Below, in pieces: positions 1,632 to 20,367 of a DNA stretch of 21,997 bases (position 1 is the stretch's first letter; each line of letters begins with the position of its first letter). The position numbers and the translations under genes are program-made. The notes under the pieces are model-generated. The model saw nothing but the letters and a program-made list of their open reading frames with translations. It did no database searches and had not been told where the DNA came from. The stretch comes from a virus, in IMG/VR virus record IMGVR_UViG_3300042456_000081, positions 1-21,997 of that record; one strand, 5' to 3'.

Positions 1632-1778
1632 ATGCCACTAAAAAAATCTACAAGTGCTAAAGCTTTTAGAGAAAATGTAAAAGCTGAAGTTAAAGCAGGC
1701 AAACCAGCTAAACAAGCCGTTGCTATTGCATACAGTGTTAAACGATCCGCAGCTAAAAAAGGTAAAAAATGCAGTTAA
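1632..1778 (+). CDS. 48-aa basic phage protein with a KQAVAIA motif
   Basis: The 48-aa product begins MPLKKSTSAKAFRENVKAEV and contains KAGKPAKQAVAIAYSVKR, a pattern recurrent in small phage proteins of unknown function. It is preceded by the same AAGGAAAATAAA leader as the 50-aa gene before it, starts one base after that gene's stop codon, and overlaps the GroES start by 10 nt in another frame. The tail is Lys-rich and ends KKCS. The function is unknown; cationic character and position suggest a packaging-associated or virion role, which is inference. Confidence 0.83.
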   Translation: MPLKKSTSAKAFRENVKAEVKAGKPAKQAVAIAYSVKRSAAKKGKKCS

Positions 1779-2047
1779 AACCTTTAAGTGATTGTGTTTT
1801 AGTAAAACAAGATGTAGAAAAATTATCTAGTATTATTATTGTAGAAACTAACAAAAAGCTATCAACAGGTGTTATAGTAGCCGTTGGTCAAGGTAAGAAG
1901 TTACCTAATGGTAATATAGATGAAATGTATTTAAAAGTAAACGATCATATTATGTTCGGTGAATATTCAGGACAGCCTGTAACCGTAGATGGTGAATCTT
2001 ATTTAATAATGCGTCAACCAGACGTCATAGGGATATTAGATGAATGA
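1769..2047 (+). CDS. Phage GroES-like co-chaperonin (Cpn10)
   Basis: The 92-aa product matches the Cpn10 fold along its whole length (bacterial GroES is about 97 aa). It has an N-terminal LKPLSDCVLVKQD strand, a mobile-loop region at residues 17-34 with a hydrophobic III-V patch, the STGVIVAVGQGKKLPNG core, a KVNDHIMFGEYSG roof region and a C-terminal IMRQPDVIGILDE strand. GroES caps the GroEL folding chamber; phage versions such as T4 gp31 adapt the host GroEL to fold coat protein. No GroEL is present here, so the host's would be used. The usual Gly-Gly before the hydrophobic tripeptide appears replaced by Ser-Ile. The gene overlaps the portal start by 8 nt. Confidence 0.92.
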   Translation: MQLKPLSDCVLVKQDVEKLSSIIIVETNKKLSTGVIVAVGQGKKLPNGNIDEMYLKVNDHIMFGEYSGQPVTVDGESYLIMRQPDVIGILDE

Positions 2048-4235
2048 TGAAATGAAAACAGTAGGTAGAGTTGCTGATAGTGATGATCGTGATTTAATAT
2101 CAACAATGAAAAGCCGCTTTACTATGGCGGTTTCTGCATATTCTGAATCGCGCGAAGATGAATTAGATGATTTAAGATTTCAAGCGGGATCACCAGATAA
2201 TCAATGGCAATGGCCAGCCGATGTTTTAGCAACACGCGGATCGGTTCAAGGTCAAACCATTAATGCACGTCCATGTTTAACCATTAATAAATTACCCCAG
2301 CACGTAAGACAAGTCACTAACGATCAACGTCAAAATAGACCTTCAGGAAAAGTTATTCCTGCTGATGATAAAGGTGATATTGAAGTAGCTGAAATATTTG
2401 AAGGCGTTGTACGTCATATTGAATATATTTCAGATGCTGACGTTGCTTACGATACTGCTTGTGAAAATCAAGTTACCTATGGGGAAGGCTATTTCCGTAT
2501 TCTCACTGAATATTGCGACGACAATTCATTCGATCAAGACTTACGCATTGGCCGCATCCGCAATTCCTTCAGTGTTTATATGGATCCTACTATTCAAGAT
2601 CCATGCGGCGCTGATGCCGAATGGTGTTTTATTACAGAAGATTTAACTAAAGATGAATATGAGCGCCAGTTTCCTGATGCGATGCCTTTATCCGTAATGA
2701 TGCAACAAGGTGTTGGCGATCAATCAACATCACAATGGCTATCAGAAAATACAGTACGTATTGCAGAATATTTTTATTATGAGCATACGCCAACAAAATT
2801 AAATTTATACGCAAACAATGTTAATGCACTTGAAGGTACGCCTGAAGATAAGCAAATGAAAGCTTTAGGTATGAAACCTATTAAAACACGTACTGCAGAT
2901 GTTAAAACAGTTAAGTGGTGTAAAACAAACGGATTTGAAATGTTAGAATCACGCGATTGGGCGGGTAAATTTATTCCGGTTATTCGTGTTGTAGGTAATG
3001 AATTTGAAGTTGATGGACGTTTATATGTATCAGGTTTAGTACGTAATGCTAAAGATGCACAACGTATGTATAACTATTGGGTATCTCAAGAAGCTGAAAT
3101 GTTAGCACTTGCACCTAAAGCACCGTTTATTGGATATGGCGGTCAATTTGAAGGTTATGAAAACCAATGGAAAACAGCTAATACAACTAATTGGCCATAT
3201 TTAGAAGTTAACCCCGATGTAACAGATGGAAATGGTGCAGTATTGCCATTACCTCAACGTGCTTTGCCGCCTATGGCACAAACTGGATTAATACAGGCAA
3301 AAATGGGTGCGTCTGATGATATTAAATCTACAACAGGTCAATATGATTCAAGTTTAGGCGCTACAAGTAATGAACGATCAGGCCGTGCAATTTTAGCGCG
3401 CGAAAAACAAGGCGATACAGGTACATACCATTTTGTTGATAATTTATCTCGTGCTATTAGATATGGTACGCGTCAATTAGTAGACTTAATACCAAAAATA
3501 TACGATACACAACGTATTGCTCGTATTATAGGTATTGATGGTGAAACAGGTATAGCTAAAATAGACCCTAATCAAGCCGAACCAGTCAGAAAAGTTGTTG
3601 ATGAAACAGGTGTTGTTATTGAAAAAATATACAATCCTAGCGTTGGTAAATATGATGTTTGTGTAACAACAGGCCCAAGCTACATGACTAAACGTCAAGA
3701 ATCATTAGATGCTATGAGCCAATTATTACAAGGTAATCCTCAATTATGGGCTGTTGCTGGCGATTTGTTTGTTAAAAACATGGATTGGCCTGGCGCGCAA
3801 GAAATGGCTAAACGATTTGCTAAAACTATTGACCCTAAACTATTAAGTGACGATGATAAAACACCTGAGCTACAAGCTGCTGAACAACAAATTCAAGTTA
3901 TGGCTCAAGAATTAGATCAATTACATGGCATGATGGAAAATGTTAGCAAGTCTATTGAAGTACAAGACATGGAACGTAAAGATTTTGAAGCTCAAATTAA
4001 AGCTTTTGATGCTGAAACTAAACGATTAGCTCAAGTTCAAGCTAATATGTCACCTGAACAAATACAAGATATAGTAATGGGTACGGTTCATGGTATGATT
4101 ACAAGCGGCGATTTAGTAAACCAAATGCCAGGGCAAAATCGTGAAATGTTACAACAAATGCCTGAACAAATGCCTGAACAAATGCCTGAACAAATGCCTG
4201 AACAAATGCCAATAGATCAAGGAGTGCCTTTATGA
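2040..4235 (+). CDS. Portal protein, P22 gp1-like
   Basis: The product has 731 aa, almost the length of the P22 portal (725 aa), and shows P22-type portal features: an N-terminal helical stretch (SRFTMAVSAYSESREDELDD), a QVTNDQRQNRPSGKVIPADDKGD segment that recurs in this family, and a long C-terminal helical, Gln/Met-rich barrel region. The portal forms the dodecameric ring through which terminase pumps DNA and onto which the tail assembles. ATG at 2040 overlaps the GroES stop; an in-frame ATG at 2052 is an alternative start. The C-terminal end contains four perfect Gln-Met-Pro-Glu repeats. The gene ends with an AAGGAG site for the next gene, which it overlaps by 4 nt (ATGA). Confidence 0.95.
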   Translation: MNDEMKTVGRVADSDDRDLISTMKSRFTMAVSAYSESREDELDDLRFQAGSPDNQWQWPADVLATRGSVQGQTINARPCLTINKLPQHVRQVTNDQRQNRPSGKVIPADDKGDIEVAEIFEGVVRHIEYISDADVAYDTACENQVTYGEGYFRILTEYCDDNSFDQDLRIGRIRNSFSVYMDPTIQDPCGADAEWCFITEDLTKDEYERQFPDAMPLSVMMQQGVGDQSTSQWLSENTVRIAEYFYYEHTPTKLNLYANNVNALEGTPEDKQMKALGMKPIKTRTADVKTVKWCKTNGFEMLESRDWAGKFIPVIRVVGNEFEVDGRLYVSGLVRNAKDAQRMYNYWVSQEAEMLALAPKAPFIGYGGQFEGYENQWKTANTTNWPYLEVNPDVTDGNGAVLPLPQRALPPMAQTGLIQAKMGASDDIKSTTGQYDSSLGATSNERSGRAILAREKQGDTGTYHFVDNLSRAIRYGTRQLVDLIPKIYDTQRIARIIGIDGETGIAKIDPNQAEPVRKVVDETGVVIEKIYNPSVGKYDVCVTTGPSYMTKRQESLDAMSQLLQGNPQLWAVAGDLFVKNMDWPGAQEMAKRFAKTIDPKLLSDDDKTPELQAAEQQIQVMAQELDQLHGMMENVSKSIEVQDMERKDFEAQIKAFDAETKRLAQVQANMSPEQIQDIVMGTVHGMITSGDLVNQMPGQNREMLQQMPEQMPEQMPEQMPEQMPIDQGVPL
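4155..4210 (+). repeat. Four 12-bp tandem repeats in the portal C-terminus
   Basis: The unit CAAATGCCTGAA is present four times without mismatch, followed by a partial fifth copy. It is in frame and encodes Gln-Met-Pro-Glu repeated, at portal residues about 706-723. The perfect identity at DNA level suggests recent slippage expansion and a likely length-variable site. Confidence 0.95.
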
Positions 4236-4594
4236 GTTGCGAAAATTTTATAGGAACACTATTTTTAGCTAGAGACGTTACGCACTCTGTTCACTTAAAT
4301 ACTAGAAGTTATGCTAAACATAAGGCATTACAAAAATTTTACGAAAGTATTATTGATCATGCAGACGCGTTTGCCGAAGCGTATCAAGGTCGATATGGCT
4401 TAATTGGCCCTATTTCATTACAATCAGCTAAAAAAACTACTAATATTATTGAATTTTTAGAAGATCAGCTAAAACAAATTGAAGCTGATAGATATAAAGT
4501 TTGTGATAAAGAAGATACCCCTTTACAACAACTCATAGATAATGTGGTAGAGTTATATTTATCCACTCTTTATAAACTTCGCTTTTTAGCATAA
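4232..4594 (+). CDS. Dps/ferritin-like small phage protein (DUF5856-like)
   Basis: The 120-aa product looks all-helical. From His21 to Glu49 it aligns by eye to E. coli Dps: His21 and His30 fall where Dps has His51 and His63, and Asp45 and Glu49 fall at Asp78 and Glu82, inside a matching IIDHADAFAE segment (ALIDHLDTMAE in Dps). Dps Asp67 is replaced by Gln34, and the loop between the two histidines is three residues shorter. Dps proteins oxidise iron at a two-subunit ferroxidase site and can bind DNA. The protein is shorter than Dps (167 aa), so full iron storage is not shown. I recall similar phage proteins under the name DUF5856. It starts inside the portal stop with a strong AAGGAG site. 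Confidence 0.72.
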   Translation: MSCENFIGTLFLARDVTHSVHLNTRSYAKHKALQKFYESIIDHADAFAEAYQGRYGLIGPISLQSAKKTTNIIEFLEDQLKQIEADRYKVCDKEDTPLQQLIDNVVELYLSTLYKLRFLA

Positions 4595-20188: not shown

Positions 20189-20367
20189 TGAGTATTGAAG
20201 CCTTTGCAGGTTACTGTGAACATATGGTCGGTAAAACGATTGTTGAATGCGGAACCTTTGAGGATGATTTCTTTTTAACGTTTGATGATAAGACTACAAT
20301 GTTTATGATGGCAGATCAAGATTATTTAAGTTTAAGCCTTCATGTACCTAATGAGATTAAACAATGA
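20188..20367 (+). CDS. 59-aa hypothetical protein
   Basis: I place the start at ATG 20188, which shares one base with the stop of the one-TM gene, giving a 59-aa product beginning MSIEAFAGYCEHMVG. A longer frame from ATG 20101 exists, but its extra 29 residues only re-read the membrane-segment codons of the upstream gene and are probably not translated. The product has VECGTFEDDFFLTFDDKTTM, a predicted beta-hairpin pattern, and is acidic. The function is unknown. It ends in an ATGA overlap with the endolysin gene. Confidence 0.7.
   Translation: MSIEAFAGYCEHMVGKTIVECGTFEDDFFLTFDDKTTMFMMADQDYLSLSLHVPNEIKQ

Follow-up and report, generated by a model that had tools for sequence, protein, structure and literature searches.

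A portal-coupled DUF5856 protein of a freshwater phage with a Dps-like predicted fold and ferroxidase-type residues

Locus and gene product

The window, meaning the whole stretch of DNA analysed here, is a 21,997-base virus record from a freshwater phage, for which a megablast search of the complete sequence returned no near phage record. Open reading frame calls and profile searches identified genes for a terminase, a tail spike, a scaffold-like protein, a major head protein, and an endolysin in addition to the features listed in Table 1. The gene under study encodes a protein of 120 aa. Near the gene, the portion of the portal gene coding for the C-terminus carries a perfect 12-bp tandem repeat (4.8 copies, window 4153-4210) that codes for (MPEQ)n.

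Table 1. Coordinates of the gene, its upstream neighbours, and selected codons within the window
Feature	Coordinates	Strand	Evidence
GroES-like co-chaperonin, upstream of portal	1769..2047	+	PF00166, 3.6e-20
P22-type portal gene, upstream partner	2040..4235	+	PF16510, 3.4e-172
Ribosome-binding site AAGGAG, inside the portal gene, 7 nt before the ORF start	4219..4224	+	Sequence reading
ATGA, 4-nt overlap of portal stop and ORF start ATG	4232..4235	+	Sequence reading and locus comparison
Putative Dps-like mini-ferritin, DUF5856 / PHROG 858	4232..4594	+	ORF call, profile and structure evidence, hhalign
His21, Dps His51, near the end of helix A, invariant in 59	4292..4294	+	Conservation, structure model, hhalign
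His30, Dps His63, helix B, invariant in 59	4319..4321	+	Conservation, structure model, hhalign
Gln34, Dps Asp67 position; Q/G in family, Asp in T4 rI.-1	4331..4333	+	hhalign, conservation
Asp45, Dps Asp78, invariant in 59	4364..4366	+	Conservation, hhalign
Glu49, Dps Glu82, invariant in 59	4376..4378	+	Conservation, hhalign
Asp103, helix D, 56/59	4538..4540	+	Conservation
Tyr114, helix D, invariant; aligned to E. coli Dps Trp160	4571..4573	+	hhalign, conservation

At the level of sequence, membership of the protein in Pfam DUF5856 (PF19174; 3.6e-22, 79.7 bits against a curated cut-off of 34.6) and in PHROG 858 (1.2e-24) is clear, and all residues that are invariant across the family are present in it. 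A search against NCBIfam returned nothing, and a Pfam match to the periplasmic domain of CpxA (18.3 bits), which fell under its cut-off, was treated as noise. PHROG 858 bears the name 'starvation-inducible transcriptional regulator'. That the protein regulates transcription, as suggested by this name alone, is considered highly improbable, since the predicted ferritin-type bundle lacks a DNA-binding domain and the name most likely derives from 'DNA protection during starvation'.

Relationship to Dps proteins

A monomer model was generated with AlphaFold2 using 52 aligned sequences. It contained four helices (residues 3-23, 27-55, 72-90, and 96-119; mean pLDDT 94.7, pTM 0.88), and thus the four-helix bundle on which the sequence-only reading of a Dps-like protein had depended is present in the prediction. 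Residues 56-71, which form the B-C loop, were modelled as coil with no BC helix. When the model was compared against the PDB using Foldseek, the top matches were mostly Dps (best probability 0.96-1.00, TM 0.5-0.73), and although the E-values were poor (best 0.09), probability and ranking favoured Dps. Similar predicted folds were also found in BFVD among giant viruses (A0A481ZC29 and A0A7D3V608, from Pithovirus LCPAC404 and Fadolivirus; Foldseek E 2.4e-4 and 6e-3).

Searches with the single sequence reached Dps at an E-value of about 0.2 at best, and the Pfam Ferritin model (PF00210) was absent among the matches of the protein at E up to 10. A family profile searched against the PDB retrieved H. 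pylori Dps (HP-NAP) first (E = 3.2e-5), followed by many other Dps, and this result was reproduced with a second family alignment. Direct comparison of the family with a Dps alignment using hhalign gave P = 1.8e-6 to 6.7e-6, the P = 1.8e-6 run spanning 104 columns, and paired H21, H30, Q34, D45, and E49 with H51, H63, D67, D78, and E82, respectively, in E. coli Dps numbering. In the E. coli Dps sequence taken as the seed, the site residues occupy positions 51, 63, 67, 78, and 82; this sequence agrees with the 1dps alignment, and an 81%-identical genome match to it was found.

Profile-profile scores to Dps were 37.8-41 bits, compared with at most 18.5 bits in 100 column shuffles, and a reversed-profile control gave P = 0.13. 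These controls, a bacterioferritin control (P = 0.2), and the residue invariance described below rule out a chance four-helix resemblance; membership in the bacterioferritins is likewise ruled out by that P value as against the Dps-specific match. At the profile level the family is thus matched by Dps and not by bacterioferritin.

Conservation was assessed in 59 divergent relatives, filtered at less than 90% identity. Only six columns were invariant (H21, H30, A32, D45, E49, and Y114), and six more were nearly so (H18, S26, L33, Y37, G53, and D103). Four of the five residues of the Dps ferroxidase site are thus found in the protein, with H21 near the end of helix A and the others in helix B, as in Dps, and the correspondence initially proposed from the letters alone, including the matching helix segment and the Asp67 position as the single differing ligand, was upheld. 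If four of the 19 H, D, or E residues from position 6 onward were drawn at random, they would be the Dps-site four with p of about 2.6e-4, and since the same four are invariant in relatives in which only six columns are, the match is not attributed to chance. When three cellular members were added, H, H, D, and E were still invariant. Position 34 was Q in 38 of the relatives, G in 17, N in two, R in one, and D in one, the last being T4. Because the D67 ligand is absent, the second iron site may be weak. Asp103, one of the nearly invariant residues, may be an extra ligand.

T4 rI.-1 (L082:2459-2845) was found to carry Asp at the D67 position, so that all five Dps ligands are present (H33, H42, D46, D57, and E61). 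Its model was also a four-helix bundle (pLDDT 89.4), and its fold matches included ferritin-like proteins, Dps, and also CopM.

Taken together, the Dps-specific profile matches, the confidently predicted four-helix bundle, and the four invariant residues make the reading of the window protein as a mini-ferritin with a metal site well supported, and its identification as Dps-like holds both in predicted fold and in metal-site residues. It is not a standard Dps. The earlier suggestion that it might condense DNA is unlikely for the mode used by E. coli Dps, because the Dps-type lysine-rich N-terminal tail is absent, with two residues preceding helix A, and the predicted pI is 6.05. Such a tail is not common to all Dps.

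Family distribution and gene neighbourhoods

Relatives were detected by tblastn in 1,441-1,450 phage records, mostly T4-like phages and Ackermannviridae, with T4 rI.-1 included. The window's own lineage comprised 80 IMG/VR loci (76-100% identity), and three more IMG/VR queries yielded 113 further loci that were divergent or T4-type. Against 14 control genomes, the DUF5856 model gave a weak match in Bacillus subtilis that was below its cut-off. The protein is thus a typical representative of a family that is very common among phages and formally of uncharacterised function, and for which a literature search under the name DUF5856 found no paper. The Dps-like protein at this locus, which had been described as unexpected, is no isolated case, since about 1,440 phage records contain members of its family.

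Chromosomal DUF5856 genes were located among housekeeping genes in Candidatus Actinomarina (L203-L213 (3920-4324); L205, L211). Of 42 genomes from the Actinomarina family, 14 carried such a gene, and PF00210 ferritin was found in none. DUF5856 may be the sole Dps-like protein of the carriers. A fixed lysA neighbour could not be confirmed, as lysA was directly adjacent in L205 only.

Gene order was compared across lineages. Within the window's lineage, 79 of 81 loci had the portal gene immediately before the DUF5856 gene, and 64 showed exactly the 4-nt overlap seen in the window. In other lineages, the DUF5856 gene was located downstream of a different portal type (L102), between genes for a terminase and a head-tail connector, or near tail genes, and in T4 it follows rI. 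The earlier claim that the protein is coded and translated with the portal therefore stands as translational coupling within the window's lineage; since neighbours differ among lineages, adjacency to the portal is a lineage trait and was rejected as a definer of function. A late or morphogenesis setting of family genes is common, though not universal. In two distant loci (L114:4432-4977 and L116:4427-4999), the gene immediately preceding DUF5856 is GroES-like, which is echoed in the window by the GroES-like gene just upstream of the portal-DUF5856 pair.

Several neighbourhoods bear on a role in the timing or inhibition of lysis, as has been proposed for T4 rI.-1. The T4 gene overlaps the antiholin gene rI, and homologues overlap an endolysin gene in Caulobacter phage GB2A and a holin gene in P19250A. 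In the account of Golec et al. 2010 given in a review passage (PMC6832632), over-expression of rI.-1 slightly prolongs lysis inhibition, although such an effect could be indirect. RaK2, however, carries a family gene (ORF015) without having the T holin or the RI antiholin (PMC3622015), and the copy in the window lies a long way from the endolysin gene (position 20364), being coupled to the portal instead. Regulation of lysis is regarded as a distinctly unlikely function.

Proposed function and comparison with known systems

Homologues have been detected in virions of other phages. ORF78 of LIMEstone1 was identified by virion mass spectrometry (3 unique peptides, 28.2% coverage; PMC3296691), and gp217 of Sajous1 was represented by 10 spectra in CsCl-purified virions and was modelled as a ferritin by its authors with a confidence of 96.7 (PMC10892097). 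In our comparison, gp217 belonged to DUF5856, with 91% identity to LIMEstone1 ORF78; its identity to the window protein was 34%. In the Klebsiella phages ValerieMcCarty03/04, 26/27 spectra were assigned to a protein named 'starvation-inducible transcriptional regulator' (PMC13119998), which was placed in the family by its name and by the same name on matching Klebsiella phage proteins. By analogy with these homologues, presence of the window protein in the virion is plausible, and the protein is probably virion-associated.

From gp217, a 'Ferrojan horse' mode of entry was suggested for Vi01-like phages, in which iron or another metal carried by the virion would exploit metal-uptake receptors of the host (PMC10892097). 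The occurrence of a ferritin in virions fits this proposal, but mutation of tonB or feoB in Salmonella left infection by Vi01-like phages normal (PMC10892097), which argues against an entry role through iron receptors and leaves this reading quite improbable.

A rival reading, also in keeping with detection in purified virions, is that the Dps fold has been reused in a head, neck, or tail component with a purely structural or assembly function, the metal site being retained solely for folding stability. Portal, GroES, terminase, or tail genes as neighbours in several lineages point the same way, as do the missing D67 and BC helix of the window protein. This alternative is nonetheless judged unlikely, given that no variation is seen at the four ligand positions, in contrast to nearly all other columns, and that such variable neighbours would be unusual for an essential structural part.

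The explanation we favour, by a modest margin over even chance, is that the window protein is a compact mini-ferritin adapted to phage use, which functions in the manner of Dps, is made late, and is associated with the virion. Binding and oxidation of iron are predicted from the Dps precedent as the best reading of its activity. Two or more subunits would pair such that Fe(II), or a metal like it, is bound by H21 and H30 from one subunit together with D45 and E49 from its partner. Oxidation of the bound iron, with H2O2 as the preferred oxidant as for Dps, would remove the DNA-damaging combination of iron and peroxide. Produced late together with the portal, the protein would end in or on the virion, and would thereby protect the encapsidated genome, or the host cell while particles assemble and lysis proceeds. 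Of all parts of this scheme, the specific role in the virion is the least secure. Against the mini-ferritin proposal stand the absence of D67, of a BC helix, and of a PF00210 match, the poor Foldseek E-values, the varying neighbourhood, and the effect reported for T4 rI.-1 in the review passage cited above (PMC6832632), which is a mild lysis inhibition and not an iron phenotype.

A broader and rather doubtful extension is that DUF5856 constitutes a phage-wide, metal-oxidising mini-ferritin of virions, in T4-like, Ackermannviridae, and P22/T7-like phages, that guards the genome from iron and peroxide, and that some streamlined marine Actinomarina bacteria also use, without another recognisable ferritin. 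If this were true, T4 rI.-1 would be given a biochemical function. A link to ferritin has already been published for one distant homologue (2024), and database names hint at the same; the present analysis adds that the site is strictly invariant, that T4 rI.-1 has all five ligands, and that Actinomarina carries chromosomal copies. The conserved Dps-type site and the detection in virions turn a vague annotation into a testable question, namely whether an iron-oxidising mini-ferritin is carried in phage particles.

Among known systems, Dps proteins (E. coli Dps, H. pylori HP-NAP, and B. subtilis MrgA) resemble the window protein in the four-helix bundle and in having a His that closes helix A, with His, Asp, and Glu following in helix B at the same spacing within that helix as in the window protein. 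Dps is a dodecamer with ferroxidase sites between subunits. The window protein differs from Dps in being about 25-45 residues shorter, with an A-B loop three residues shorter, in having neither the BC helix nor the N-terminal tail, in the replacement of D67, and in being missed by the Pfam ferritin model. Genes for Dps and Mn-catalase have been reported in gut and Lactobacillus phages and were recognised as DPS by the authors, who stated that DPS was previously known from seven Lactobacillus phages only (PMC8008677); by that statement, DUF5856 was apparently not counted as DPS. These are likewise phage-borne ferritin-like proteins, tied to oxidative stress. The nearest counterparts are other members of DUF5856 / PHROG 858 (T4 rI.-1, LIMEstone1 ORF78, and Sajous1 gp217), which match the window protein over nearly its full length and share with it the invariant H, H, D, E, and Y positions and a similar length. 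T4 rI.-1 differs in its fifth ligand, which is Asp where the window protein has Gln34, and the window copy is set apart from other members by its coupling to a P22-type portal gene.
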